DNA from: Fimbriimonadaceae bacterium
Lineage (GTDB): Bacteria; Armatimonadota; UBA10988
Length of the DNA: 64,000 nt
NCBI GenBank assembly: GCA_020850355.1
Contig: JADZEX010000062.1
Span: 1 to 64,000 of the forward strand
Reading direction: 5' to 3'
The notes beneath the pieces are model-generated. The model made no database searches, was not told where the DNA came from, and was given only the letters and a program-made list of their open reading frames with translations. Below are positions 3,084 through 62,384 of this stretch, piece after piece; within the stretch, counting starts at the first letter, position 1; each line of letters opens with the position of its first letter. The position numbers and the translations under genes were made by a program.

Positions 3084-4076
3084 CTACATCGAGAAGCTGC
3101 GCAGCACGTGCATGTAGTTGGCGCGCTCGTAGGCGTTAGTGTCGGGGCAGCGCTGCAGGTTCATGCTGCCCTGCATCTGCGTCAGGTCGACGTACTCGTT
3201 GCTCTCCATCCACTGCGCCACGTCGGACTTCACCGCGGCCAGCCAGCTCGGGCCCTTCAGGAAGAGGGCGCTGACCATCTGCACGGCATGGGCGCCGCAC
3301 ATGATCGACTTGACCGCGTCGAGGTGGCTGTGGACGCCGCCGCTGACGGCCAGGCTGGTCTCCAGGCGGCCCGAGAGGATCGCCAGCCAGCGCAAGCGCA
3401 GCAACAGCTCGGAGCTGTCACTGAGCCGCAGCGAGCGCACCACTGCCAGCTCCTCGACGTCGATGTCGGGCTGGTAGAAGCGGTTGAAGAGCACCAGCCC
3501 GGCGGCGCCGGCGGCGCAGAGCTGCTGCGCCACGTGGGCCATCGAGGTGTAGAACGGCGAGAGCTTGACAGCGAGCGGGATGGTCACCGCCTGCCTCACG
3601 GCGCGAACCATCTCGACCGTCCGCGCCTCGATCCCCTCACCGCTCTCGTTGATGCTGGTGGCCAGGTAGTAGGCGTTCAGTTCCAGCGCAGCGGCGCCGG
3701 CCTGCTCGATCAGCTTGGCGTAGTCGAGCCAGCCGCCCAGGCTGCTGCCGTTGAGGCTGCCGATCACCGGCAGATCGCAGGAGGCCTTGATCTTGGCGAC
3801 GTGCTCGAGGTACTCCTCGGGCCCCAGCCGGAAGGCTTCCGGCGTCGGGAAGTAGGTCAGCGCTTCGGCGTGCGCGTCGGAGCGGCCGTCCACGGCGCCG
3901 TAGGTGGCGAGCTGCTCGCCGACGATCTGCTCCTCGAACAGCGACTGCAGCACAATCGCCGCCGCGCCGGCGTCTTCGAAGCGCCGCACCGTGTCCAGGT
4001 CCTCGCTCATCTTCGAGGCGCCGGGCATGAAGGGGTGCGGCAAGTCCAGGCCGAGGTATTTCGTTGACAGGTCCAT
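3084..4076 (-). CDS. Dihydroorotate dehydrogenase-like protein (NifJ-associated)
   Basis: This 330-residue protein is a flavin-binding TIM barrel of the dihydroorotate dehydrogenase superfamily. It starts MDLSTKYLGLDLPHPF, has the PVIGSLNGSS strand, SGGVHSHLDAVKSIM near the FMN phosphate site, and AHAVQMVSALF. Proteins of this subgroup are commonly annotated 'dihydroorotate dehydrogenase-like' and are often encoded beside pyruvate:ferredoxin oxidoreductase, as here, rather than with pyrimidine genes. The canonical catalytic Cys/Ser region of true PyrD is not obvious, so pyrimidine synthesis should not be assumed. It follows nifJ on the same strand by 63 bp, with a hairpin in the gap. A role linked to NifJ or to reduction of a pyrimidine-like substrate is inference. 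Confidence 0.8.
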   Translation of the reverse strand: MDLSTKYLGLDLPHPFMPGASKMSEDLDTVRRFEDAGAAAIVLQSLFEEQIVGEQLATYGAVDGRSDAHAEALTYFPTPEAFRLGPEEYLEHVAKIKASCDLPVIGSLNGSSLGGWLDYAKLIEQAGAAALELNAYYLATSINESGEGIEARTVEMVRAVRQAVTIPLAVKLSPFYTSMAHVAQQLCAAGAAGLVLFNRFYQPDIDVEELAVVRSLRLSDSSELLLRLRWLAILSGRLETSLAVSGGVHSHLDAVKSIMCGAHAVQMVSALFLKGPSWLAAVKSDVAQWMESNEYVDLTQMQGSMNLQRCPDTNAYERANYMHVLRSFSM

Positions 4077-4095
4077 CAGGTATCCTCCCTGACAG

Positions 4096-4133
4096 GCCGC
4101 GGCGGGCCGGCTGGTCGGCCCGCCCGCCGCGGC
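4096..4133 (-). terminator. Intergenic hairpin between nifJ and its downstream gene
   Basis: GCCGCGGCGGG pairs with CCCGCCGCGGC, continued by three further base pairs after a 4-nt bulge, in the 63-bp gap between nifJ and the dihydroorotate-dehydrogenase-like gene. There is no T tract. It could protect the nifJ mRNA end or reduce read-through within the operon. Confidence 0.4.
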
Positions 4134-4139
4134 GCAGAG

Positions 4140-7727
<3,588 letters not shown>

Positions 7728-8116: not shown

Positions 8117-9469
8117 ATGGCCGAAGCGGAAGCACCGCGCGATCCAGGGATTGTCTGGAAGCTGTCGGTGGTGATTTTCCTGCAGTTCTTCATCTGGGGC
8201 TCGTGGTACCTGTCGGTCAGCCTCTACATGATCCACCACCAGATGGAGCAGGGCTGCTACTACGCCTACACCGCCGGACCGCTGGCGGCGATCGTCACGC
8301 CCATCTTGATGGGCCTGCTGGTGGACCGCTTCTTCAACTCCGAGAAGGTGCTGGGTGCGCTGTTCGCCCTCGGCGGGGTCTTCATGATCCTGCTGCCGTG
8401 GGTCGGCAACCTGCCGGGCACCCCCGTCCCGGGCGTTGACAAGGCCTTCTCGGTCGAGCTGTTTGGGCAGACGGCCAACAAGAGCCTTGTCTTCAACGTG
8501 CTGGTCTTCCTGCATATGCTCTGCTACATGCCGACCCTCGGCCTGACCGCCAGCCTCTCGTTCTTCCACATGCCGAAGGGCTCCACGCAGTTCCCGCTGA
8601 TTCGGCTGTGGGGCACCATCGGCTGGATCGTCGCCGGCTTCGTGCTGGCTTTCGTGTTCACCAACAAGGCCGCCGGCATCGAGGGCGCGCACAGCGATGT
8701 GCAGTTCTACATGGGCGGCGGCGCCGGCCTGCTGCTCGGCCTGTTCTGCGCCTTCGGCCTGCCCGCCACGCCGGCCCCCAAGAAAGGCCAGCCGCTCGAC
8801 GTGCGGGCGCTCCTGTTCATGGACGCCTGGCAGCAGATGAAGTCGCGCTCGTTCGCCGTCTTCATCATCTGCTCGTTCCTGGTCTGCATTCCGCTGGCCG
8901 CCTACTACGCCTCGCTGCAGCAGCAGATGGAGGCGATGCAGATGCAGCGGATCACCGCGATGAAGAACATCGGCACCTTCGTCGAGGCCGGCATGATGTT
9001 CGCGATGCCGTTCTTCCTGCGCAGCCTGGGCGTCAAGAAGATGATCGGCATCGGGATCCTGGCCTGGGTGGTGCGCTACGTCTGCTTCGCCCTGGGCGCC
9101 GGGACCACCCCGAGCGCGCATGCCCTCGTGATCTTCGGCATTGCGCTCCACGGCTTCTGCTACGACTTCTTCTTCGTCACCGGGCAGATCTACGTCGACA
9201 ACAGCACCCCCGCCAGCGTCCGGGGGCAGTGCCAAGGGATGAACATCCTGTTCACCCAGGGCCTTGGCCTCTGGCTCGGTGCGATGGTTGCCAACGGGTT
9301 CGCCCAGCGCGCCTTCCACGGCGTTTCGCAGGCCACCACCGAGGCGCTGCCGCTGTGGCCCGGCCTGTGGTGGCCGCTGGCGGGGATCGCAGCGGTGGTG
9401 CTGGTGGTCTTCCTGCTGCTCTTCAAGGACGAGGGCAAGATCGAGGCCGCCGAGCAGCCGGTCGGCTGA
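8117..9469 (+). CDS. MFS transporter, nucleoside:H+ symporter type
   Basis: A 450-residue polytopic inner-membrane protein with about twelve hydrophobic segments. The opening segment LSVVIFLQFFIWGSWYLSVS and the loop around RLWGTIGWIVAGFVL are typical of the nucleoside:H+ symporter (NupG/XapB-like) branch of the major facilitator superfamily. The conserved end contains GFCYDFFFVTGQIYVD. In environmental bacteria this family also includes sugar or unknown-substrate carriers, so the substrate is left open. The ATG at 8117 is chosen for its GAGGAG box 8 bases upstream; an in-frame start at 8087 would add MEFARRGDAL without a good site. It is transcribed from its own promoter and followed by a strong hairpin, so it appears monocistronic. 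Confidence 0.85.
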   Translation: MAEAEAPRDPGIVWKLSVVIFLQFFIWGSWYLSVSLYMIHHQMEQGCYYAYTAGPLAAIVTPILMGLLVDRFFNSEKVLGALFALGGVFMILLPWVGNLPGTPVPGVDKAFSVELFGQTANKSLVFNVLVFLHMLCYMPTLGLTASLSFFHMPKGSTQFPLIRLWGTIGWIVAGFVLAFVFTNKAAGIEGAHSDVQFYMGGGAGLLLGLFCAFGLPATPAPKKGQPLDVRALLFMDAWQQMKSRSFAVFIICSFLVCIPLAAYYASLQQQMEAMQMQRITAMKNIGTFVEAGMMFAMPFFLRSLGVKKMIGIGILAWVVRYVCFALGAGTTPSAHALVIFGIALHGFCYDFFFVTGQIYVDNSTPASVRGQCQGMNILFTQGLGLWLGAMVANGFAQRAFHGVSQATTEALPLWPGLWWPLAGIAAVVLVVFLLLFKDEGKIEAAEQPVG

Positions 9470-9486
9470 CCGCAGCGGCCTGGCCT

Positions 9487-9519
9487 CCGCCGACCCCGCC
9501 CGCGTGGTGGGGTCGGCGG
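9487..9519 (+). terminator. Hairpin after the transporter gene
   Basis: CCGCCGACCCC (9487-9497) pairs perfectly with GGGGTCGGCGG (9509-9519) around an 11-nt loop, 17 bp after the transporter stop codon. A weak T-rich run (CTTT) follows. Confidence 0.6.
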
Positions 9520-9584
9520 CTCGCTTTGGGGTAGGCACCTGACAGCCCGCGAGCCAGTCCGCATCGTAGTCGACGGAGGAGCTG

Positions 9585-10229
9585 ATGTTCCGACGGCGGC
9601 TGGTCGCGAAGAAAGAGGAGATTGCCCGGCAGCGGGCCTGGGATTCGGGCACCACGCCCACCGCGCCCGAGCGCCTGCCGCCGGGGCAGCACCTCGTGCG
9701 GCCGGAGCAGTTCCCGATCCTCGACCTCGGCGTCCATCCGCCGTTCGACCCGACGACCTGGGACCTCACCCTCGACGGCGCCGTCAGCCACCCGCTGCGG
9801 ATCGACTGGGAGCAGTTCCGCGCCCTGCCGACGGTCACGCAGACCCGCGACTTCCACTGCGTCACCACCTGGAGCAAGTACGATGTCACCTGGCGCGGCG
9901 TGCCCTTCCGGCACCTCGCCGAGCTGGCCGGCGTGCTCCCTGCCGCGCAGCATGTGATCGCCCATTGCGGCGACCTGGGCTACACCACCAACGTCCCCCT
10001 GGCCGACATGCTGCGAGACGACGTGCTGCTGGCCTACGAGCTGGAGGGCCAGCCGCTGAGCCTGGAGCACGGCGGCCCGGTGCGCACCCTGGTGCCGCAC
10101 CTCTACGCCTGGAAGTCAGCCAAGTTCGTGCGCCGCCTCGAGTTCAGCGAGGTCGACCGACCCGGCTTCTGGGAAGTCCGCGGCTACCACAACGACGGCG
10201 ACCCGTGGGCGGAGGAGCGCTTCGGCTGA
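9585..10229 (+). CDS. Sulfite oxidase-like molybdopterin oxidoreductase
   Basis: A 214-residue protein covering the sulfite-oxidase/YedY (MsrP)-type molybdopterin domain alone. The sequence DFHCVTTWSKYDVTWRGVPF, near residue 90, includes the cysteine expected to bind molybdenum; LVPHLYAWKSAKFVRRLEF and DRPGFWEVRGYHNDGDPW are hallmark segments. There is no signal peptide or heme domain, so it is likely a cytoplasmic short form. Such proteins are annotated as sulfite oxidase-like, with unknown physiological substrates. The ATG at 9585 has GGAGGAG 6-12 bases upstream. The next gene, a sulfatase, starts 65 bp downstream and may be co-transcribed. Confidence 0.88.
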   Translation: MFRRRLVAKKEEIARQRAWDSGTTPTAPERLPPGQHLVRPEQFPILDLGVHPPFDPTTWDLTLDGAVSHPLRIDWEQFRALPTVTQTRDFHCVTTWSKYDVTWRGVPFRHLAELAGVLPAAQHVIAHCGDLGYTTNVPLADMLRDDVLLAYELEGQPLSLEHGGPVRTLVPHLYAWKSAKFVRRLEFSEVDRPGFWEVRGYHNDGDPWAEERFG

Positions 10230-10294
10230 GGCCTCGACAGCCAACCTCGCGGCCAGCTCGAATGGCGCGGTGCGGGCCGGCAACGGAGACCCAG

Positions 10295-11662
10295 GTGGCG
10301 ACCATCACACGGCGGCAGGCCATGCAGTTGGCGGCGGCGGGGACGGCCTGGGCGGCCGGTTGCCGGCGACCCGCGCGCGCCGCCGAGCGACCTCCGCACC
10401 TGATCGTGGTGCTGGCCGATGACCTGGGCGCCAAAGAGCTGTCGTGCTACGGCAGCTCGCGCCACCAGACGCCGTGCCTGGACCGCCTGGCCAGCGAGGG
10501 CACCAGGTTCCGCACCTGCTGGGCGATGCCGCTTTGCACTCCCACCCGCATGGCGCTGATGACGGGGCAGTACGGCTTCCACAACGGCTACCTGGGGATG
10601 GCCAACCCGGCCTACATCCCAGCCAAGACGGCGCCGGAGGCGCAGATTGTCAACCACCTGACGTTCTCCAAAGTGCTGCAACAGGCCGGCTACGCCACCG
10701 CGCTGGCCGGCAAGTGGCAGCTCTCGGGGAAGCTCCCGACGCTGGTCCGTGAAGCCGGCTTCGACGAGTACTGCATGTGGGCCTACGAGGACAACGTCCC
10801 GCCCGGCGTGCGGCACCCGGACTACGAGAACGCCACCCGCACGAGCCGCTACTGGCACCCCTGCCTGGTTCAGAACGGCGAGTACCGGCCGACGCAGCCC
10901 GCTGACTTCGGCCCCGATCTGCTGCACGACTTCGTGGTTGACTTCCTACGGCGCCACCGTGAGCAGCCGTGCTGCGTCTACTACACGTCACTCCTCACCC
11001 ACCAGCCGCGGGTCGAGACGCCCGACCCGGCGCACCCCGGCGAGCGCCGCCCAGCCGGCCTGAAGTCCAACGTCGAATACCTGGACCACCTGGTGGGTCG
11101 GCTCGACGCCGCGCTAAGCGACCTGGGCGTGCGCGACAACACCCTCCTCGTGTTCCTTGGCGACAATGGCACCGGGCAGGAGGGCAAAGGGACCGTCACC
11201 GAGCTCGGCGCCCGCGTGCCCGGCATCATCCGCGGGCCCGGGGTGCGCGCCGGGCAGATTTCGATGGCCGTCACGGATGTCACCGACCTGTACCCCACCC
11301 TGCTGGACTACGCGGGCCTGCCACAACCGGCGGACCACCAACTCGACGGTCGCAGCCTGCGGCCGGTCCTGGAGGGCCGCGCGGAGCGGCATCGCGACTG
11401 GATCTACAGCCATCTCGACGACGGCCGCCTGCTGCGTGATGAGCGCTGGCTGCTGCAGATCGACCGAACCACGCACCGCGAGCACTTCTACGATAGCGGC
11501 ACCAGCCGCAACGGCGACGGCTATCGCGACGTCACTGCTGCGGCCGATCCGACCGTCCTCCAGGCCCGCGCCCGCTTCGCCGCTGTGCTGGACACCATCC
11601 CGCCGCCGCGCCCTCGCCCCGGTACTCAGCCCGGCCGGAACCGTCCCGCTGACCCGGCCTGA
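10295..11662 (+). CDS. Tat-exported sulfatase
   Basis: A 455-residue arylsulfatase-family hydrolase that would cleave sulfate esters after export. The GTG start at 10295 is preferred because GGAG lies six bases upstream and it places a twin-arginine signal (TITRRQAMQLAAAGTA) at the very N-terminus; an ATG at 10262 is possible. LIVVLADDLGAKELSCYGSS gives the metal-binding aspartates, and PLCTPTRMALMTGQ holds the CxPxR motif whose Cys81 would be converted to formylglycine. GDNGTG and DLYPTLLDYAGL are further family motifs. Substrate is unknown. The sulfite-oxidase-like gene upstream suggests, as inference only, a link to sulfur handling. Confidence 0.9.
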   Translation: MATITRRQAMQLAAAGTAWAAGCRRPARAAERPPHLIVVLADDLGAKELSCYGSSRHQTPCLDRLASEGTRFRTCWAMPLCTPTRMALMTGQYGFHNGYLGMANPAYIPAKTAPEAQIVNHLTFSKVLQQAGYATALAGKWQLSGKLPTLVREAGFDEYCMWAYEDNVPPGVRHPDYENATRTSRYWHPCLVQNGEYRPTQPADFGPDLLHDFVVDFLRRHREQPCCVYYTSLLTHQPRVETPDPAHPGERRPAGLKSNVEYLDHLVGRLDAALSDLGVRDNTLLVFLGDNGTGQEGKGTVTELGARVPGIIRGPGVRAGQISMAVTDVTDLYPTLLDYAGLPQPADHQLDGRSLRPVLEGRAERHRDWIYSHLDDGRLLRDERWLLQIDRTTHREHFYDSGTSRNGDGYRDVTAAADPTVLQARARFAAVLDTIPPPRPRPGTQPGRNRPADPA

Positions 11663-53268: not shown

Positions 53269-53298
53269 TTGACGGGCCGGCTTGCACGGCGCGATAAT
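53269..53298 (+). promoter_or_regulatory. Promoter of lysA (and possibly the run downstream)
   Basis: TTGACG (53269-53274) and GATAAT (53293-53298) are 18 bp apart, near consensus. It diverges from the acpP promoter with the two -35 elements 22 bp apart. Transcripts would carry a GGAGG ribosome-binding site at 53317-53321. Confidence 0.7.
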
Positions 53299-53331: not shown

Positions 53332-54651
53332 ATGATGCCTTGCGGGACCCTGAGCACGACCCCGGCCGATCACCTCAGCATCGGCGGCTGCGACGTGGTG
53401 GAGCTGGCCGCGCGGTTTGGGACGCCGTTGTATGTGGTCGACGAGGCTCATCTACGCGCCAACTGCGCCGCCTGGCGTGACGCCCTGGCCGCCTCCGCAC
53501 CGCACGGCGGCCGGGTGATGTACGCCTCGAAGGCGCTGCTCACCACGGCCATCGCCCGGATCGTCGCCGACTGCGGGCTGGGGCTCGATGTCGCCAGCGG
53601 CGGCGAGTTGTTGACCGCCCGCGCGGCCGGCGTGGCCGGTAGCGATCTGCTGCTGCACGGCAACTTCAAGTCGCGCGACGAGATGCATCTGGCGCTGGTC
53701 CACGGCGTCGGCCGGGTGGTCGCCGACAGCCTCCCCGAGCTGGCCCAGTGGCAGGCCCTGGCGACCGAGTTGGACTGCCGCGTGCCGCTCCTGCTGCGGG
53801 TCAACCCGAACGTCAAGCCGAAGACTCACACCAGCATCAGCGTCGGCCAAATCGACAGCAAGTTCGGCCTCAGCATCAGCGCCGGGGCCGCGCTCGAGGC
53901 GGTCCGCCAGGCGCTGGCGGCCGACCGGCTGGACCTGCTGGGGGTGCACTGCCACATCGGGTCGCAGGTCCTCGGCTGGCAGGGCTTCGCGAAGGCCGCC
54001 GAAGAGTTGGCTGCCTTTCTGGGCACCGCCCGCGCAGCCACCGGCTGGACGGCCCGCGAGGTCAACCTGGGCGGCGGGCGCGGCATCCGCTATCTGCCGG
54101 AGCATCAGCCGCCGAGCGTCGCGGAGTTCGTCGCGCAGGTCGTCGGGACGCTCCTGCAGCGCTGCGCCGAACTGGACCTGCCGACGCCCGACGTGCTGCT
54201 GGAGCCCGGCCGGAGCATTGTCGGGGAGACCGGCACGACGCTCTACACGGTGGGACCGGTGAAGGTGATTCCCGAGGTGCGGACCTACGTCAGCGTCGAC
54301 GGCGGACTCAGCGACAACCCGCGCCCCGAGATGTACGGCGCCGAGTACCATGTCTTCGTGGCCAACCGCGTCAGCGCGCCGGCCACCACCGCGGTCACCG
54401 TGGCCGGCAAGCATTGCGAGACCGACACCCTCTTCCGCGACGTGCTGCTGGCCGACCCGCAACCTGGCGACCTGTTGGCGGTGCAGAGCACCGGGGCCTA
54501 CAACTACGCGATGGCGAGCAACTACAACCGCCTGCCGCGGCCGGCGATGGTGCTGGTGAACGAGGGCCAGGCCGAGCTGATTGTGCGGCGCGAGACGGCC
54601 GACGATCTGCTGCGCTGTGACCTGCTGCCGGACCGGCTGGCCCCGCGATGA
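53332..54651 (+). CDS. lysA: Diaminopimelate decarboxylase
   Basis: LysA decarboxylates meso-diaminopimelate to lysine, using pyridoxal phosphate. The 439-residue sequence shows the PLP lysine in VMYASKALL, GVHCHIGSQ, LEPGRSIVG, the dimer active-site cysteine in KHCETDTLF, and SVDGGLSDNPRPEMYGAEY, as expected for the fold-type III (alanine racemase-like) family. The ATG at 53332 is followed by a second ATG at 53335; GGAGG at 53317-53321 serves either. It has its own promoter. Its stop overlaps the start of the next gene (ATGA), so downstream genes are likely translated from the same mRNA. Confidence 0.95.
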   Translation: MMPCGTLSTTPADHLSIGGCDVVELAARFGTPLYVVDEAHLRANCAAWRDALAASAPHGGRVMYASKALLTTAIARIVADCGLGLDVASGGELLTARAAGVAGSDLLLHGNFKSRDEMHLALVHGVGRVVADSLPELAQWQALATELDCRVPLLLRVNPNVKPKTHTSISVGQIDSKFGLSISAGAALEAVRQALAADRLDLLGVHCHIGSQVLGWQGFAKAAEELAAFLGTARAATGWTAREVNLGGGRGIRYLPEHQPPSVAEFVAQVVGTLLQRCAELDLPTPDVLLEPGRSIVGETGTTLYTVGPVKVIPEVRTYVSVDGGLSDNPRPEMYGAEYHVFVANRVSAPATTAVTVAGKHCETDTLFRDVLLADPQPGDLLAVQSTGAYNYAMASNYNRLPRPAMVLVNEGQAELIVRRETADDLLRCDLLPDRLAPR

Positions 54652-55517
54652 ACTTCGCGGCACTCGGCGCGCTGGGCTTGCTGCTGGCCTTCTGGACACC
54701 GCTGGAGCCCGGTCCGCAGCCGACGGCGGGAGCGGTCAGCCCGGACGGCGGCCACCTCGCGCTGCGCTGCTTCGTCGAACCGCACTGCGCGGGCGAGGTC
54801 TGTACACCGCAGCCCGACCTGCTGCTGCTGCTCGACGCCAGCGGCCGGCCGCAGCAGAGCTGGTCGCGAGAGTGGTGGAGCGCGCCGCTCTGGCTGCCGG
54901 GCAACCGCCTGGCGGCGGCCGCCGCCGACGGCTGGCGAGTCTGGGACCCGAGCGGGCAGGAGGTTGTGTGGGAAGCCGCCCTGCAGCCGGGGCCGGTCGC
55001 GGCGCCACCGGCCGGGCACTGGCTGGTCGCCCCGGCGGCCGGCGGGCTGCAGGTCACCGACGGCCGCTCCGGCCTGCCGCTGGGCCACCTGCCGGGCGAC
55101 GCCGTCGACGCCCTGCTGGCGACGCCCGACGGGCGCTGGCTGGTGGCGGCGGCCGGGCCGTCGTTGACGCTCTGGGACCCTGTCACGCAGACCGTCGCAG
55201 CGCGCCGCGGGGCACCGCCGGCGACCGCCCTGGTGTGGTTCGACGGCAGTCCCTGGAGCCTCACCGCGAGCGGCCTGCAGCAGTGGCTGCTGCCGCAGTT
55301 GTCGCCTGGCCGGCGCCTGCCCGGCCTGGCTGGCCCGTTGGCCTCCGATGGCCAGCGCCTGGCGGCCTGGCGCGAGAGCGAGTTGCTGCTGCTGACGCCG
55401 CCGACCAGCGCGCGCGCGGTCGGGGCCGTCCCGCCGGCTGACGCGCTGCTCTGGCTAGGCGACCGCCTGCTGGCGCTGGCGGCCAGCGGCGTGAGCGTCG
55501 TCGAGGCGCCGCGATGA
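54648..55517 (+). CDS. Exported or membrane-anchored beta-propeller-like (WD40-type) protein
   Basis: A 289-residue protein whose hydrophobic start (MNFAALGALGLLLAFW) looks like an uncleaved signal or anchor. The rest alternates strands with patterns typical of WD40/PQQ-type propellers (VSPDGGHLALR, DGWRVWDPSGQEVVW, TPDGRWLVAAAGPSLTLWDP). Several repeat-like blades are seen, with no enzyme motif. It overlaps lysA by 4 nt upstream and the Macro-CHAT gene by 4 nt downstream. Propellers commonly act as docking surfaces, and co-occurrence with a CHAT protease suggests a sensor or adaptor, which is inference. Confidence 0.7.
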   Translation: MNFAALGALGLLLAFWTPLEPGPQPTAGAVSPDGGHLALRCFVEPHCAGEVCTPQPDLLLLLDASGRPQQSWSREWWSAPLWLPGNRLAAAAADGWRVWDPSGQEVVWEAALQPGPVAAPPAGHWLVAPAAGGLQVTDGRSGLPLGHLPGDAVDALLATPDGRWLVAAAGPSLTLWDPVTQTVAARRGAPPATALVWFDGSPWSLTASGLQQWLLPQLSPGRRLPGLAGPLASDGQRLAAWRESELLLLTPPTSARAVGAVPPADALLWLGDRLLALAASGVSVVEAPR

Positions 55518-57085
55518 GCGACCCGCAACTGGTCAAGACCTACCTGGTGCATCGCACGCTGGTGCAGATCTACCTCGGTGACATCACCACGGCCGAGGTT
55601 GAAGCGATCGTCAACGCCGAGCACCGCGACCTCGAGATGGACCTGCCGACCGGCGACTCGGTCTCTGCGGCGATCCGGCGGCGGGGCGGTGAAGAGGTCG
55701 CCGAGGCGCTCCGCGGGCGGGCCCCGGCCGAGCTCGGCGAGGTGGTCGTGACCCACGCCGGCGCCTTGCCGGCGCGCTGCGTGCTGCACGCTGCGGTGGT
55801 CGATGAAGTCGGTGGCCGGCGGGTCACCGACGAGGCGACCATCGCCGCGGCGACACACACCGTGCTGCGCCGCGCCGATGCGCTCGGGGTCAAGACCATC
55901 GCCTTCCCGGCGTTCGGCGTCGGGATGACCGATATCGACGACGAGGCCGCCGCGCGGGCGATGATCGGCACGGTCACCCGCTACCTGCGGGACGAGACGC
56001 AGTTGCAGCGAGTCGTCTTTGCGCTGATCCAGCCGAGCACCTTCATCGCCTTCTTCGAGGCCGCCGTGCGCGATGCGCTGGCCCGCGAGAGCGCCCTGCG
56101 GTTGCATGTGGCGCGGCACAACGGCGAGCTGGAGTTCCACTTCGCCGGGGATGGCGCGGTCGTCAGCAAGTCGCAGGTGCCCTACGACCCGGACGAAGTG
56201 GAGGCCCTCAACGCCCGCCTGCGGAGTCTCGCGACGCAGGCCGCCGCGGGCGATGAGGTGGCGGAGCTGCGGGCGTTGGGCCGGCACCTCTACGACACCT
56301 GTTTCAGCGCCGAGGTGAAGGCGCAGTTGCTGGCCAGCGATGTCGAGAACCTCGTCCTGCGGCTCGACGAGTCGGTGCTGCACCTGCCCTGGGAGCTGGC
56401 CCACGACGGGCAGCGGTTCCTCTGTCGCCGCTTCAACCTGGGACGGCAAGTGGTCTTGCTGCAGGCCGAGCAGTCGACGCAACCGCCGCCCGAGGATCCA
56501 CCGACGCACCTGCTGGTGGCCCACAACCCGACCGGTGACCTGCCCGGCGCCGAGCGCGAGGCGCGCTTGCTGCTGGCCCACTTCGACGCCTCGCGCTGCC
56601 CCTGGAAGGTCACCGCCCTGGGCCACGAGCGGCTCGATCCGCTGCGGCTGGCGCTGGCCCTGCAAGAGGCCGATATCGTGCACTACTCGGGGCATGCCGA
56701 CACCGTGCCGCGGCCCGGCTGGCGGCTGGCCAGCGGCCCGTTCGGCGCGGAGCGGTTCGCCCGCCTGACCCGCAAGCCGCGGCTGGTCTTCGCCAACGCC
56801 TGCCACAGCGCGGGCGCCGGGCCGTCGCCGCTGGCGGCGCTGATGCTGGGCCACCAGTTCTTGCTAGCCGGGGTGCAGAGCTACCTGGGCAACCTCTGGA
56901 CGGTGCCCGACCACTCGGCGACCAGCTTCGCGGTGACCTTCTACGACGCCCTGCTGGCGGGCGAGAACTTCGGCCAGGCGCTGCGGCTGGCCAGGGAGCG
57001 CGTCGCCGAGCTGCCCGCAGGCGGCGCGATGGCCTGGGCCGGCTACGTCTTCTACGGCGACCCGCGCTGGCGGCTGAGTCGCTGA
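55514..57085 (+). CDS. Macro domain-CHAT protease fusion
   Basis: A 523-residue two-domain protein. Residues 8-185 form a Macro domain, which binds ADP-ribose or related ligands: LGDITT (Asp23), IVNAE (Asn34), and AFPAFGVGM (loop 135-137). The first ligand loop, usually glycine-rich (GGGG), is replaced by DLPTGDSVSAAI. Residues from about 300 to 523 form a CHAT (caspase-like) protease domain: VLHLPWELAHD, then VHYSGHADT with His394, and FANACHSAG with Cys430, the expected catalytic dyad; LAGVQSYLGNLW and FAVTFYDALLAGENFGQAL follow. No signal peptide or membrane segment, so it is cytoplasmic. It overlaps the propeller gene upstream by 4 nt and is 32 bp from an ECF sigma factor. CHAT proteases are frequent in signalling and conflict systems; the fused Macro domain is the unusual part. 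Confidence 0.85.
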   Translation: MSDPQLVKTYLVHRTLVQIYLGDITTAEVEAIVNAEHRDLEMDLPTGDSVSAAIRRRGGEEVAEALRGRAPAELGEVVVTHAGALPARCVLHAAVVDEVGGRRVTDEATIAAATHTVLRRADALGVKTIAFPAFGVGMTDIDDEAAARAMIGTVTRYLRDETQLQRVVFALIQPSTFIAFFEAAVRDALARESALRLHVARHNGELEFHFAGDGAVVSKSQVPYDPDEVEALNARLRSLATQAAAGDEVAELRALGRHLYDTCFSAEVKAQLLASDVENLVLRLDESVLHLPWELAHDGQRFLCRRFNLGRQVVLLQAEQSTQPPPEDPPTHLLVAHNPTGDLPGAEREARLLLAHFDASRCPWKVTALGHERLDPLRLALALQEADIVHYSGHADTVPRPGWRLASGPFGAERFARLTRKPRLVFANACHSAGAGPSPLAALMLGHQFLLAGVQSYLGNLWTVPDHSATSFAVTFYDALLAGENFGQALRLARERVAELPAGGAMAWAGYVFYGDPRWRLSR

Positions 57086-57117
57086 GCGCTGAAAAGAAAC
57101 CACGCGGCGAGGGTTCA

Positions 57118-57756
57118 GTGAACGGAGCAGAGCGGCTCTTGGAGGCTGTCGGGCGCGGCGATGGCGAGGCCTGGTCGCAGCTCTTGGAGCGCTACCGGCC
57201 GTTCGTGCTGGGACGCCTGCGGCAGGCCGCGGCGGCCCGTAACTGGTTCTGGCTGGACGACCTCGACGACGCCACCCAGGAGGTCCTGGTGCGCTTCTAC
57301 GAGGCCGTCCGCAGCGGGCGCTTCCGGTACCGTGACGAGGACCAACTGCGCGGGTTCCTGGTCCGCACCGCCTTCTTTGTGGCGATGCAGCGGAAAGACG
57401 CCGCGGCCGGGGAGCGCCCGGTCTCGGACCTGCCGGCCGAGGACCAGGAGGAGCTGACGCGGCGGTTCGATCTGGCGGCCTTCGCGGCCAGCGCCTTCGA
57501 CACGCTCGGCCGGCGGCAATGCCTGCAGGAGCTGTACGCGGCGATCGACCGCTTGTCGCCGGCGCGGCGCGAGGTGCTGCGGTTGAGCCTGCTGGGGCTG
57601 CGTCCCCGTGAGATTGCGCCGCGCCTGGCCCGCAGTGCCAACGCGGTGTCGGTGCTGAAGTTCCACGCCCTGGAGGACCTCCGGCGGGAGCTCGAGGCGA
57701 GCGACTTCATGGTCAACTGTGGGCGCTACTTCTGCGGTGCCGAGGAGGCCACATGA
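57118..57756 (+). CDS. ECF-type RNA polymerase sigma factor
   Basis: A 212-residue sigma factor starting at GTG 57118, with GAGGG a few bases upstream. Region 2 is FWLDDLDDATQEVLVRFYEA and region 4 is LSPARREVLRLSLLGLRPRE followed by IAPRLARSANAVSVLKFHAL. Regions 1 and 3 are absent, as in extracytoplasmic-function factors. Its C-terminus includes two cysteines (NCGRYFCGAEEA), beyond region 4. The stop overlaps the start of a zinc-finger protein by 4 nt, the usual sigma/anti-sigma arrangement. Target genes are unknown; autoregulation of this operon is likely but no promoter could be read. Confidence 0.88.
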   Translation: MNGAERLLEAVGRGDGEAWSQLLERYRPFVLGRLRQAAAARNWFWLDDLDDATQEVLVRFYEAVRSGRFRYRDEDQLRGFLVRTAFFVAMQRKDAAAGERPVSDLPAEDQEELTRRFDLAAFAASAFDTLGRRQCLQELYAAIDRLSPARREVLRLSLLGLRPREIAPRLARSANAVSVLKFHALEDLRRELEASDFMVNCGRYFCGAEEAT

Positions 57757-58442
57757 TGAGCGAGATCGACGACCGCGCGGCGATGGCGGCGCTGGATTGC
57801 GCCGAGGGCGAGCAACCGGGCGACGCGGCGGTGGTCCGACTGCGCCAGACGTTGCGCCTGCTGGCAGCCTTCGCACCGCAGCGGCGGGGCGCCTGTTGCG
57901 GTCGCGAACGGCTGGTGGCCTATCACGACGGGCAGCTCGGGGCCGAGGAAGCCGGCCGGGTCGAGGCGCACCTGGCGAGCTGTCCGTGCTGCGCCGCGGA
58001 CCTCGCCGATCTGGCGGCCCTGACGCAGCCGCCGTGGTTCGAAGCGGTGGTCCGGTTGGCCGCCGGGGCGGTTGAACTGGTCCGCCATAGCTTCGGCCAG
58101 GCCGTCCGGCCGGCCCCGTTGCCGGCCCGCGGCGAGGCGACCGCCACGCTGCAGTTGGCGGCCGCGCAAGACGACGTCGACCTGGCGGTCCGGCTGCTCG
58201 CCGGCTCGCCCGGTGGGGTCGACGTGCGGGTCCAGGTGCAACGCTCCGGCGCCCCGCTCGAGCGGGCCCGGCTGCAGTTGCTACGCGGTGAGGCGCTGCT
58301 CGAATCGCGGGTCCTGAGCGGCGCCGAAGAGGTCGTCTTGGCCGATCTGGCGCCCGGCGACTACGCTTTGGCCGTGACGCCACGGGCCGGCGACGAACTG
58401 GCCCGCGTGCGATTGCGGATCGAACCCGAGGAGGTCCGCTGA
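57753..58442 (+). CDS. Soluble zinc-finger (zf-HC2) putative anti-sigma factor with beta-sandwich tail
   Basis: A 229-residue protein. Residues near 50-90 give the zinc-finger anti-sigma module CCGRERLVAYHDGQLGAEEA followed by HLASCPCCAADL, with the HxxxCxxC ligands. Unlike most anti-sigma factors it has no membrane segment. The C-terminal 90 residues read as a carboxypeptidase-regulatory/Ig-like beta-sandwich (VQRSGAPLERARLQLLRGEA, VVLADLAPGDYALAVTP). The start overlaps the sigma-factor stop by 4 nt (ATGA), with a second ATG three bases later, and its stop overlaps pncB. It likely controls the upstream sigma factor in the cytoplasm by binding it. Confidence 0.78.
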   Translation: MMSEIDDRAAMAALDCAEGEQPGDAAVVRLRQTLRLLAAFAPQRRGACCGRERLVAYHDGQLGAEEAGRVEAHLASCPCCAADLADLAALTQPPWFEAVVRLAAGAVELVRHSFGQAVRPAPLPARGEATATLQLAAAQDDVDLAVRLLAGSPGGVDVRVQVQRSGAPLERARLQLLRGEALLESRVLSGAEEVVLADLAPGDYALAVTPRAGDELARVRLRIEPEEVR

Positions 58443-59731
58443 TGGCCGCCCGGCTGCCGGTCGCCACCTTCGGCCTGGATGTCGCCGGGCTCCGCGCCGG
58501 CACCTACAGCGACCAGTACTTCAACAACATCCAGCGCCTCCTGACCACCCTGGCAGCCGAGGAGTACCGTTACGGCGGCCAGTTTCCCCGGCCCGGGCTG
58601 CCCGATCCGAGCACGCTGGCAGTCGGCGACGTGGCCGTCGAGATGCAGTTCTTCACGAAGCGCCAGCCGCACAGCGTGGTGGCCGGGATCGACCACGCGC
58701 TGGCCATCTTAAGCACCTGCTGCGGCGTTGGCGAGGGCGCCGCCTTCGAGTCCACCGCCGCCCAGTTGGAGGTCGCGGCGGTCGGCGAGGGTGACCACCT
58801 GGCGCCGTGGGCCCCGGCGCTGCGGCTGCGCGGTCGCTACCGCGACTTCGCCCGCCTCGAGACGCCGCTGCTGGGGGTCCTGGCTCGCCGCACGCGGATC
58901 GCCAGCAACACCTACGAAGTGTGCCGCGCGGCACGCGGCAAGCCGGTGCTCTTCTTCCCAGCCCGCTTCGACGTGCCGGAGGTCCAGGCGGGCGACGGCT
59001 GGGCGTACCAGGTGGGCGTGCAGGCGGCCGCGCGCGAGCTCGGCGCGCCCCTGCGGCCGGCGGTCTCGACCGCCGCGCAGGCGGCCTGGTGGGGCGGTCA
59101 GGGCAGCGGCACGATGGCCCATGCCTACCTCCTGGCGTTCGCCGCGGACACCGCCGAAGCGACGCTGCAGTTCGCCCGGTTGCTGCCCCCGGAAGTTCCG
59201 CGGATCGCGCTGGTCGACACCAACAACGACTGCGTCACCGACGCGCTGCGGACCGCCGAGGCGCTCTACCGGGAGTACCGGCGGTGGCAGGCCGCCGGGC
59301 AGCCCGAGACCGCCGCGCGGTACGTGCTGCAGGGCGTGCGGGCCGACACCAGCGAACGGCTGCGCGACGCCGCGGTGCCAGCCCTGGGCGACGCGCGCCT
59401 CGACTGCGGCGTGGTGCCGCGGCTGGTCACGGCGATCCGCGAGGCGCTCGACTCCGCGGGCGAGCGGCTGGGGGCGGCGGCCTGGTTCCGGAACATCAAA
59501 ATCGTGGTCACCGGCGGCTTCGATGTCGAGCGGATCGCCCTATTCGAACGGCTCGGCGTGCCGACAGACATCTATGGGGTCGGCTCTGCGCTGCTGCGGG
59601 GGCCGAGCAACGACTTCACCGCGGACGTCGTCCAGGTCCACCACGCAGGATCCTGGATCCCGCTGGCCAAGGTCGGCCGCGGCCGGGTCGAGAATCCGGC
59701 TTTGGCCCCGGTGAAGCTCCCGCTCGCCTGA
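58442..59731 (+). CDS. pncB: Nicotinate phosphoribosyltransferase family protein
   Basis: The enzyme makes nicotinate mononucleotide from nicotinate and PRPP, the first step of NAD salvage. The 429-residue protein shows GTYSDQYFNNIQRLL and EMQFFTKRQPHSVVAGID in the N-terminal part, FARLETPLLGVLARRTRIAS, VSTAAQAAWWGGQGSGTMAHA, RIALVDTNND and VTGGFDVERIALFERLGVPT with IYGVGSALL, the phosphate-binding region. It resembles the bacterial PncB2-type branch more than short eukaryote-like forms. The ATG overlaps the stop of the anti-sigma gene (TGATG). Its place in an operon with a Macro domain protein and a sigma factor is unusual. A nicotinamide-using relative is the alternative. Confidence 0.82.
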   Translation: MAARLPVATFGLDVAGLRAGTYSDQYFNNIQRLLTTLAAEEYRYGGQFPRPGLPDPSTLAVGDVAVEMQFFTKRQPHSVVAGIDHALAILSTCCGVGEGAAFESTAAQLEVAAVGEGDHLAPWAPALRLRGRYRDFARLETPLLGVLARRTRIASNTYEVCRAARGKPVLFFPARFDVPEVQAGDGWAYQVGVQAAARELGAPLRPAVSTAAQAAWWGGQGSGTMAHAYLLAFAADTAEATLQFARLLPPEVPRIALVDTNNDCVTDALRTAEALYREYRRWQAAGQPETAARYVLQGVRADTSERLRDAAVPALGDARLDCGVVPRLVTAIREALDSAGERLGAAAWFRNIKIVVTGGFDVERIALFERLGVPTDIYGVGSALLRGPSNDFTADVVQVHHAGSWIPLAKVGRGRVENPALAPVKLPLA

Positions 59732-59765: not shown

Positions 59766-62384
59766 ATGAGTCTGCGGCTGAAGGCGCTGTTGGTGGTGGC
59801 CTGCACCTTCCTCGCGTTGGGGACGGTGGTCTACGCCACGCTGCACCAAACGCTGATCGCGGCGTTCCAGCGGCGCGAGCTGGACGAGGCGGCCCAACAC
59901 GCCTGGAGCGCCAGCGCCGCCGTGGCGCGGCTGCACCAGGACATGCTCGACCAGATGGCCGACTGGTCGAACTGGGACGACACCTGGCACTTCGTGCGCG
60001 GGACCAAGTCGGACTATGTGGCCGCGAATCTGCCGGCCAACACCTTCCCGCCGCTGAAGCTGAACCTGATGCTGTTCCTGCGGCCCGATGGCCGGCTGTA
60101 TCACCAGGTGGCGGCCGACTGGCGGCAGGAAACGCTGGTCGCGCCGCCGCGCGCGACGGTCGCCGTGCTGTGCGGCCTGAGCGTCATCCGGCAGGCGCTG
60201 CGCCAGCCGGTTTCTGGCTGCCTGGTGCGGCCGGAAGCCACTTGGCTGATCGCGGCGCGGGGCATCTTGAAGAGCGACGGCAACGGTCCACCGGCCGGGG
60301 TGCTGGTGTTTGGCCGGCGGATTGAGGGTGCCGAGCTGGTGGAGCTGAGCCGCCTGACGCAGCTCCCGCTACGCCTGACGCCCAGCAGCCAGTTGGTCCC
60401 CCAGTCGTTCGCGGCGCGCGCCTGGCAGGCCTTGGCGGCGACCGGCCGCACGGCCCAGGTGGCCGATTCCGAGACCGTCGTCGGGTTCGCGCGGATCCCT
60501 GGCATGGCGGCGTCCGAACCGTTGCTGCTACAGACCGAGACGCGCCGCACCATCACCGGCGAGGGCCACGCCCTGGAGCAGTTTCTGGTCGGCTCGCTGG
60601 GCGGCCTGCTGGCGGTGGTTGGGCTGAGCGTCGTGATGCTGCTGTTGCGCACCGTCGTGCTGCCGGTCACGGAGCTGCGCGACCGGGTCTTACGGATCAG
60701 CCAGAGTGGCGACCTCGGCCGGCGCGTGGCGATCAGTGGTCGCGACGAGGTGGGGCAGCTCGGCGCGTCGATCGACACCATGCTGGCGGCCCTGGAGCAG
60801 TCGCAGCGCCGGCTGGCGACCAGTGAGGTACGCTACCGCGCGGTCGTCAACGGGACCCAGGAGGGCCTTTACCTGATGCGGCGCGAGCCGCCGGCGATTC
60901 TGGACTGCAACCCGGCCTTCGCGGCGTTGTTGCAGTGTCCGCGCGAGACCTTACTGGGCCGTGACCCGCGCGAGCTGCAGGATCCGAACGACGCCTGGAG
61001 CGGACTCGAAGAGGCCGCTCCGAGCGACCACCCGGATGGCTGGACCGGCCGGCGGGTGCTCCGCCGCCTCGACGGCTCGACGCTGACCTGCGAGCTCATC
61101 GCCACCTGGATCGAGCTCGACGGCGAACCGGTGCTGTGTTGCCTGGTCCACGATATCAGTGCCCGGCTGCAGGCCGAGGCGGAGCGCGCCGAGCTGAACC
61201 GGCGAGTCGAGACCGCCGAACGGCTGGAGAGCCTGGCGGTGCTGGCCGGCGGCGCGGCGCACGACTTCAACAACCTGCTGCAGGCGATCCTCGGCCACGC
61301 CGACCTGGCCCGGCTGGACCAGACGCCCGGCAGTTCGTTGTGGCGCTCGCTGACCCAGATCGAAACCGCCGCGGTGCGGGCCAGCGACCTCACCCGGCAA
61401 CTGCTCGCCTTCGCCGGTGAGCCGACCGGGGTGCAGCGGCCGGTGGACCTGACGCAGGTCGTCGGCGACACCGTCCAACTGGTCGACAGCACCCTGCCGC
61501 CGGCCTTGCAGGTCGAGCTGCGCGCCGACAGCGACCCGCTGGTGGTGCGGGGCGACCCGGCGCAGTTGGGGCAGGTGGTGATGAACCTGCTGCTCAACGC
61601 CGCCGAGGCGGTCGGCGAGGGGGGCGGGCGAGTGCAGATCAGCACGCACCGCCAAAGTGTCGATTTGGACTGGCTGGCCGCGGCGATCCCCGGCAGCGCC
61701 CTGCCGCCGGGCGAGGCCGCGGTGCTGCGGGTCACCGACGACGGTTGCGGCATGACGCCGGAAGTGCTGCGCCGGATCTGTGAACCGTTCTACTCGACCA
61801 AGGCCCTCGGGCGGGGGCTCGGGCTGTCCAGCGTCCGCGGCATCTTGACCGGGCACGGTGCCGCGCTGGCGGTCCACAGTCGCCGTGGCGAAGGGACCAC
61901 CTTCGAGGTGGCCCTGCCCCTCTGCAGCGAGGTGCCCGAGCCCTTGCCGGGCGGCGGCGTACCGGTCGCGACCGACGGGCCGCAGGTGCTCGTGCTGGTG
62001 GTCGACGACGACACCGCGGTGCGGGCCGTCAGCGCGCAGGTGCTGACCCGTGCCGGCTACGCGGTGCGCACCGCGGCCGACGGCTACGAAGGGGTCGCCT
62101 GCGCCGCCGAACTCGGCGACAAACTGGGCGCGGCGGTGCTTGACCTGAGCCTGCCAGGGCTCGACGGCCCGGACCTGATCGCCGCGTTGCGCCGGATGCT
62201 GCCCCGGCTGCCGCTGCTGCTGACCAGCGGCTTTCAGCGCGAGCCCGAACTGGGCGAGCTGCTGGCCAGCTCCCAGGTCAGCTTCTTGCCGAAGCCCTAC
62301 CGCCCGAGCGTGCTGCTCGACCGCCTCGATGCCCTGCTGCACGAGTCGCAGCCGCAGGAGGAGGCCGTGCTGCGGCGAAGCTGA
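59766..62384 (+). CDS. CHASE4 hybrid sensor histidine kinase/response regulator
   Basis: An 872-residue membrane sensor. TM1 (ALLVVACTFLALGTVVYATL) precedes an external CHASE4 domain (WSNWDDTWHFVRG); TM2 is LGGLLAVVGLSVVMLLL, followed by a HAMP (VLPVTELRDRVLRISQSGD), a PAS region (YRAVVNGTQEGLYLM), a HisKA domain with HDFNN (His499), an HATPase (DDGCGMTPEVLRRICEPFYS), and a receiver domain at the C-terminus (VDDDTAVR, phospho-acceptor Asp793). Autophosphorylation and phosphotransfer occur within one chain, so a separate output regulator is expected elsewhere. It starts 34 bp after pncB on the same strand. The external signal is unknown. Confidence 0.92.
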   Translation: MSLRLKALLVVACTFLALGTVVYATLHQTLIAAFQRRELDEAAQHAWSASAAVARLHQDMLDQMADWSNWDDTWHFVRGTKSDYVAANLPANTFPPLKLNLMLFLRPDGRLYHQVAADWRQETLVAPPRATVAVLCGLSVIRQALRQPVSGCLVRPEATWLIAARGILKSDGNGPPAGVLVFGRRIEGAELVELSRLTQLPLRLTPSSQLVPQSFAARAWQALAATGRTAQVADSETVVGFARIPGMAASEPLLLQTETRRTITGEGHALEQFLVGSLGGLLAVVGLSVVMLLLRTVVLPVTELRDRVLRISQSGDLGRRVAISGRDEVGQLGASIDTMLAALEQSQRRLATSEVRYRAVVNGTQEGLYLMRREPPAILDCNPAFAALLQCPRETLLGRDPRELQDPNDAWSGLEEAAPSDHPDGWTGRRVLRRLDGSTLTCELIATWIELDGEPVLCCLVHDISARLQAEAERAELNRRVETAERLESLAVLAGGAAHDFNNLLQAILGHADLARLDQTPGSSLWRSLTQIETAAVRASDLTRQLLAFAGEPTGVQRPVDLTQVVGDTVQLVDSTLPPALQVELRADSDPLVVRGDPAQLGQVVMNLLLNAAEAVGEGGGRVQISTHRQSVDLDWLAAAIPGSALPPGEAAVLRVTDDGCGMTPEVLRRICEPFYSTKALGRGLGLSSVRGILTGHGAALAVHSRRGEGTTFEVALPLCSEVPEPLPGGGVPVATDGPQVLVLVVDDDTAVRAVSAQVLTRAGYAVRTAADGYEGVACAAELGDKLGAAVLDLSLPGLDGPDLIAALRRMLPRLPLLLTSGFQREPELGELLASSQVSFLPKPYRPSVLLDRLDALLHESQPQEEAVLRRS

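Follow-up and report, generated by a model that had tools for sequence, protein, structure and literature searches.

Several described systems use caspase-like proteases or macro domains in signalling. One is the output branch of the type III-E Craspase, in which the TPR-CHAT protein Csx29 cuts the small inhibitor Csx30 and thereby frees CASP-sigma, with the CHAT protease, the inhibitor and the extracytoplasmic function (ECF) sigma factor encoded together (PMC10028731). A CHAT gene adjoining an ECF sigma gene has also been noted for ECF54 and other ECF groups (PMC8999054). In EACC2 systems, a caspase protein whose attached domains vary, macro among them, is encoded beside an ECF sigma factor and a DUF1822 TPR protein, and autopeptidase signalling is proposed for it (PMC8195603). 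In Thoeris, the macro domain of ThsA is a non-catalytic sensor of ADP-ribose (ADPR) and imidazole adenine dinucleotide (PMC11204291). Here, we describe a related locus in a 64,000-nt stretch (hereafter the window) of a Fimbriimonadaceae metagenome-assembled genome (MAG) of the phylum Armatimonadota (GCA_020850355.1, contig JADZEX010000062.1, positions 1 to 64,000; genome G000, contig C65), in which a Macro-CHAT fusion, an ECF sigma factor and a soluble zinc-finger (zf-HC2) protein form a conserved gene unit. The reading that we favour, at slightly better than even chances, is a cytoplasmic sigma/anti-sigma switch driven by the caspase-like CHAT protease, with the Macro domain as its attached sensor. 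The three genes are as follows.

55514..57085, + strand: Macro-CHAT fusion, 523 aa; Macro at residues 13-190, low-confidence linker at 191-330, CHAT at 254-516
57118..57756, + strand: ECF sigma factor, 212 aa, after a 32-nt gap
57753..58442, + strand: soluble zf-HC2 (ZAS) protein, 229 aa, likely anti-sigma; 4-nt overlap with the sigma gene

The sensor of Craspase is an RNA-guided effector and its inhibitor is Csx30, whereas these places are taken in the window by the fused Macro domain and by the zf-HC2/beta-sandwich protein, and the window CHAT carries Macro instead of TPR. No cas genes were found in the scanned flanks of the window, and none were apparent in the flanks of its relatives, although no dedicated whole-genome CRISPR search was made. 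ECF54 is listed without an anti-sigma factor (PMC8999054), whereas the window locus has a ZAS-type protein and its CHAT bears Macro. The EACC2 systems likewise place a caspase-fold protease with exchangeable partner domains beside an ECF sigma factor, but there the protease is a caspase, the EACC2 domain is constant, the partner is DUF1822 and, in the part of the source available, a zf/beta protein is not described (PMC8195603); the window has CHAT and, by Pfam, no DUF1822. ThsA (TM-macro) resembles the fusion in having a non-catalytic macro domain for the sensing half of the effector (PMC11204291), but it is a membrane effector needing the TIR partner ThsB, and its pocket contacts (N114 and loop residues) are lost or changed in the window Macro. 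For such a TIR partner, no TIR_2 match was obtained in the whole genome of the window, other TIR models not having been searched. A TIR enzyme as the obligatory source of the ligand was considered and found unsupported, as neither this genome nor the relative G003 (below) gave a TIR_2 match.

Pfam places Macro (PF01661, E 2.3e-18) and CHAT (PF12770, E 6e-36) in one protein, assigns sigma region 4 to the next gene (E 2.4e-7; TIGR02937 at 52.6 bits versus a cut-off of 42.9) and matches the third to the zf-HC2 family (E 9e-8). The order lysA, an optional propeller-like gene, Macro-CHAT, sigma and zf-HC2 is retained in all four family genomes, comprising that of the window and the same-family relatives G001, G002 and G003 (assemblies 93%, 72% and 80% complete, respectively), in G002 across a contig break; the conserved block extends beyond the limits drawn in the initial annotation to include lysA upstream. 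Orthologues of the fusion in the three relatives are about 71-79% identical. Between genera, Macro-CHAT is under purifying selection (nonsynonymous divergence dN 0.19, synonymous divergence dS 0.62-0.68, dN/dS near 0.3), and its amino acid identity exceeds that of the adjoining lysA (76-78% versus 67%), which argues that it is a real gene. Because the propeller-like gene and the nicotinate phosphoribosyltransferase (NAPRT; pncB) gene are each limited to two of the four genomes, the conserved unit comprises Macro-CHAT, the sigma factor and the zinc-finger protein, with pncB as an optional passenger. The propeller slot is occupied in G000 and G002 and empty in G001 and G003. NAPRT is found in G000 and G002, both times at the Macro-CHAT locus and as the sole copy found in the genome, and protein and family searches of the G001 and G003 assemblies returned no copy; in G001, zf-HC2 is followed by unrelated metabolic genes, and in G003 the contig stops after it. 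Both genes were therefore ruled out as integral parts. A search of 101 genomes at the protein level, another of 251 phylum genomes with a CHAT profile and one contig scan yielded no full-length Macro-CHAT match outside this family, and nothing in plasmid and phage collections matched >80% of the query. A match in Nonomuraea was rejected as an ordinary macro gene. Between Macro-CHAT and sigma, where the window has only its 32-nt gap, G002 carries a 29-nt inverted repeat, 97% complementary with arms 47 nt apart (contig C489, L041, 967-1071).

The zf-HC2 protein is likely an anti-sigma factor, and its binding and inhibition of the sigma factor are predicted from sequence. It is composed of a zinc motif (C48...H73-x3-C77-x2-C80), a helix at 95-116, a disordered linker and a C-terminal beta-sandwich at 129-223. 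C48, H73, C77 and C80 are invariant in the four orthologues, and this ZAS motif is encoded next to an ECF sigma gene. The AlphaFold2 (AF2) model contains no membrane helix, which bears out the earlier description of the protein as soluble. Because this model has modest confidence and Foldseek pairs it with beta-sandwiches of a generic kind (FN3-like, best E 7e-4), the fold is given only as a beta-sandwich. A conserved Ala-Arg-Gly motif lies in a low-confidence joint of the model, where the anti-sigma-like helices meet the beta-sandwich. Some clan CD proteases, such as clostripain and separase, cleave after Arg, and this motif is therefore taken as the first candidate cut site.

58125..58133, + strand: conserved Ala-Arg-Gly (residues 125-127), candidate CHAT cut or docking site in the joint between the anti-sigma part and the beta-sandwich

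The positions that matter most in the fusion lie in the Macro pocket and at the CHAT active site.

55580..55582, + strand: Macro Asp23 (GDIT), expected adenine-contact residue, kept; role by analogy with ThsA D83 (PMC11204291)
55607..55660, + strand: Macro loop 1, IVNAEHRDLEMDLPTGDS; His37 in place of the catalytic Asn, and GGG changed to an acidic/Pro loop that is four residues longer
55913..55939, + strand: Macro loop 2, FGVGMTDID where GTGVGGFP is expected
56693..56695, + strand: CHAT catalytic His394 (HYSGHAD)
56801..56803, + strand: CHAT catalytic Cys430 (FANACHS)

The H394/C430 dyad is invariant in the intact Macro-CHAT copies and in the Omnitrophota relative described below. Compared by sequence with the PDB, the CHAT half gave no useful match. 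The Macro part is modelled with a pLDDT mostly of 90-98, and Foldseek aligns it with 2dx6 (TM 0.90) and ADPR-bound 5l9k (TM 0.86), both by target length. When the pockets of the four orthologues were set beside those of 12 further macro domains from the phylum, the altered loop 1 was found to be conserved in all four and absent from the 12. In the orthologues, the GDIT Asp and the first Asn are retained, but His replaces the catalytic Asn, Ser occupies the catalytic Asp position, EMDxPxGxS stands in place of GGG, and GVGxTDID replaces GTGVGGFP. With N[A/P]EH for NAAN, SVSAAI for GVDGAI and the loops replaced in 4/4 orthologues, MacroD-type hydrolysis is very unlikely. Since these changes are conserved within the family, the pocket is under selection but non-canonical, and because both the MacroD catalytic residues and the two phosphate-binding glycine loops have been lost or replaced, the domain probably serves as a reader whose ligand has changed. 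ADP-ribose may or may not be that ligand: the adenine-contact Asp is retained, but the remodelled loops weaken the premise. A further macro domain of the same genome lies within a 643-aa open frame (G000:C86:183932-184360).

The combination of CHAT, sigma factor and small middle protein recurs in the phylum. Among 36 other usable CHAT loci of the phylum, fetched with flanks and picked by similarity to the window CHAT, 17 have an ECF sigma gene at <=2 kb versus about one expected from 20 control regions, a rough expectation resting on only two sigma matches across those regions. The linked sigma gene mostly shares the strand of the CHAT gene and precedes it, a single small gene separating the two. 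The intervening small proteins share a zinc-finger-like or degraded N-terminal part, a helical joint with Arg-Gly and a C-terminal beta-rich domain, and several of them lack the zinc ligands but retain the beta-rich domain. In a profile-profile comparison, the window zinc-finger family matched these middle genes with 96.7% probability (E 4.5e-10) over 143 columns spanning the zinc finger, helix, Ala-Arg-Gly motif and beta-sandwich. The window locus has the same components, namely an adjacent ECF sigma gene, a small soluble zinc-finger/beta-sandwich protein and a CHAT with an intact dyad. The domains joined to CHAT in sigma-bearing loci are TPR, Clp_N, nucleotide cyclase (Omnitrophota), none (Leptospira) and, here, Macro. 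Across these recurring loci and CHAT types, what stays constant is the pairing of a sigma factor with an anti-sigma-like protein, and what varies is the domain joined to CHAT. In the CHAT tree, Macro-CHAT groups with cyclase-CHAT, lone CHAT and CHAT-Clp_N (100/99), apart from TPR-CHAT, and a sigma gene, a middle gene or both accompany members of both groups.

The Armatimonadota operons with TPR-CHAT resemble the window in their homologous middle protein, ECF sigma factor and CHAT, but they carry TPR, place CHAT last and belong to the other CHAT subclade, whereas the window carries Macro and places CHAT first. One such operon, sigma, beta protein and a 911-aa TPR-CHAT, is a second operon in the genome of the window itself (G000:C17:46000-65000, L047, 9309-13233, - strand). 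Beyond the family, the nearest CHAT belongs to an Omnitrophota MAG, where it is fused to a nucleotide cyclase and encoded behind an ECF-type sigma gene and another gene. In Omnitrophota JAJDBZ010000601.1 (L038, 11-9036), a 1304-aa TPR-CHAT, an ECF-type sigma factor, a 426-aa protein and a nucleotide cyclase-CHAT stand in a row. The Clp_N-bearing CHATs of two Armatimonadota follow a zinc-finger-like gene and, contig permitting, a sigma gene. Downstream of one Clp_N-type CHAT (G220:C67, L070), tandem 513-aa proteins at 8126-9667 and 10055-11596 have zinc-ribbon and P-loop motifs (VGAGSSGKTCY) and likely membrane segments. On Leptospira interrogans plasmid pLiSL25 (41429-54253, L136), a sigma-70 factor, a hypothetical protein and a 403-aa lone CHAT occupy 3888-6999; this CHAT gene is missing from the plasmid gene table used, and the layout matches the Armatimonadota modules. 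Two proteobacterial plasmid CHATs have no sigma gene alongside. As the Leptospira, Omnitrophota and Clp_N-type middle proteins gave no significant match to the window zinc-finger profiles in hmmsearch, their likeness is one of position and general layout only.

The genes and sites around the unit in the window are as follows.

53269..53298, + strand: housekeeping (sigma70-type) promoter-like site TTGACG-18-GATAAT, 5' of lysA; likely operon start
53335..54651, + strand: lysA-like pyridoxal phosphate-dependent decarboxylase (ornithine/diaminopimelate/arginine; Pfam PF02784/PF00278); start codon at 53332 or 53335
54648..55517, + strand: propeller-like protein, optional; 4-nt overlaps with lysA and with Macro-CHAT
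58442..59731, + strand: NAPRT-like gene, optional passenger; 1-nt overlap with zf-HC2
59766..62384, + strand: CHASE4-PAS hybrid histidine kinase, 3' of NAPRT

The initial annotation listed five genes in the order propeller, Macro-CHAT, sigma, zf-HC2 and NAPRT, with near-overlaps, and all five are open frames on the + strand that overlap or nearly do so; family scans agree with their naming except for the propeller, which gave no match and whose assignment comes from WD-like sequence repeats in an open gene. The NAPRT-like protein has PRK07188 as its best NCBIfam match (E 4e-59, 200 bits, under the curated cut-off of 378) and matches the archaeal NAPRT 2i14 in the PDB with E 1.9e-19. In the family scan, the flank downstream of NAPRT holds the CHASE4 hybrid kinase and ExbB/ExbD. 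A histidine kinase also lies 3' of NAPRT in G002, and the extended block is thus common to both genera (G000 and G002). Upstream of lysA, the other three genomes have a -10-like hexamer (TATACT/TATAAT) at the equivalent place. The sigma, zf-HC2 and NAPRT genes overlap or nearly so, and a separate NAPRT promoter is not apparent. Joint production of the parts at a basal level is probable and would fit a post-translational switch.

A possible mechanism can be proposed on this basis. In the resting state, all parts would be co-made from the housekeeping promoter, and the zf-HC2 protein would hold the ECF sigma factor through its zinc finger and the following helix, while its beta-sandwich may serve as a handle or bait for the CHAT protein. 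The Macro domain could then bind a nucleotide-type ligand, most likely a modified ADP-ribose-like or other adenine-containing molecule, and this binding may relieve a block on the CHAT active site. CHAT could then cut the zf-HC2 protein in the exposed joint near Ala-Arg-Gly 125-127, after which the anti-sigma part would be lost or destabilised, and the freed sigma factor would switch on genes elsewhere. Given the features of the locus and the Craspase precedent, sensing by Macro, cutting by CHAT and release of sigma is the most economical reading. The initial annotation had likewise suggested that CHAT acts on the sigma/zinc-finger pair. The adjacency of these genes in four of four genomes, their recurrence in the phylum and the Craspase analogy support this suggestion, and ligand binding, cleavage and sigma release stay putative steps drawn by analogy.

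Several observations weigh against such a switch. The order CHAT-sigma-zf in the window is the reverse of that in the TPR type, and the middle protein of Leptospira is not significantly similar to the window zinc-finger protein in hhalign (E 0.13). The acidic residues that replace the Macro glycine loops may exclude diphosphate ligands, the linker between Macro and CHAT has an AF2 confidence of <50, which puts gating beyond modelling, and the sigma regulon is putative, none having been identified. In addition, the G002 fusion is split over two contigs, lacks the stretch around the CHAT catalytic His and is shifted in frame (L041, 2-931); this copy may be an assembly error in a 72%-complete assembly or a broken gene.

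Other explanations were weighed against the same evidence. The locus could be a conflict or suicide system, in which CHAT would kill through host targets, the sigma factor would raise a parallel alarm and Macro would respond to a signal of infection produced elsewhere. Described conflict systems often contain caspase-fold proteases and Macro domains (PMC7159879, PMC8195603), and ThsA offers a precedent (PMC11204291), but the unit occupies the same chromosomal place beside lysA in four genomes and is conserved above lysA, no mobile or defence context was seen, a PADLOC scan gave nothing convincing (no match for the CHAT protein better than E 0.004), and the TIR_2 domain was not found in G000 or G003; this explanation is unlikely. 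A non-proteolytic switch, in which the zinc-finger protein would be a redox-responsive ZAS anti-sigma factor and Macro-CHAT would act by binding only, is somewhat less likely still. The zinc motif is intact, and soluble ZAS anti-sigma factors usually answer oxidative stress by conformational change (PMC8999054), but the CHAT His/Cys dyad is conserved, and several homologous CHAT-linked middle genes have lost the zinc ligands while keeping the beta-rich domain, which points to CHAT as the common input.

It is improbable that CHAT instead cleaves or degrades the sigma factor itself, as a shut-off in which the zf protein would be a chaperone or anti-sigma factor. For the CHAT-associated ECF54, control by proteolysis has been suggested, but that group is without an anti-sigma factor (PMC8999054), whereas an anti-sigma-like partner is always present at the Macro-CHAT loci. 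The circuit put forward in the initial annotation, in which Macro would sense NAD breakdown as ADP-ribose, CHAT would free the sigma factor and the sigma factor would raise pncB to restore NAD, is the least probable of these and lacks support. NAPRT does end the block in the window and in G002, and neither genome yielded a second copy, but G001 and G003 keep Macro-CHAT, sigma and zf-HC2 without it, there is no room for a promoter of its own, the operon promoter looks housekeeping and the Macro glycine loops are lost. The expected neighbours of Macro-CHAT accordingly hold for sigma and zf-HC2 in 4/4 genomes and for pncB in 2/4.

Searches of the open-licence literature for CHAT with anti-sigma, ECF, zf-HC2 or macro returned Craspase, CalpL, the reviews cited here or nothing. 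Neither the Macro-CHAT version nor the exchange of CHAT partner domains beside an unchanging sigma/zf pair was found described there. The earlier remark that this exact combination is undescribed thus stands for that literature, although its parts, namely CHAT beside an ECF sigma factor, CHAT freeing a sigma factor and macro as a second-messenger sensor, have each been described. As a more speculative extension, which we regard as possible but doubtful, CHAT proteases and ECF sigma factors may together make up a wide family of intracellular switches that sense, cut and transcribe, with interchangeable sensors (TPR, Clp_N, nucleotide cyclase, Macro). Craspase would be one recruited case of this family, and the Macro version may report an adenine-nucleotide signal that is new and non-canonical, by way of a remodelled pocket unlike those of the other macro domains compared.

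Most CHAT proteases lack known substrates, and this soluble three-gene set offers both a likely substrate, the zf protein, and a likely read-out, the sigma factor. The Macro version also provides a way to learn what a macro domain without glycine loops senses. If the proposed cut is true, the numerous loci in which TPR-CHAT, Clp_N-CHAT or cyclase-CHAT stands among such neighbours could be examined in the same way, and Craspase would seem to have taken over a switch that already existed.

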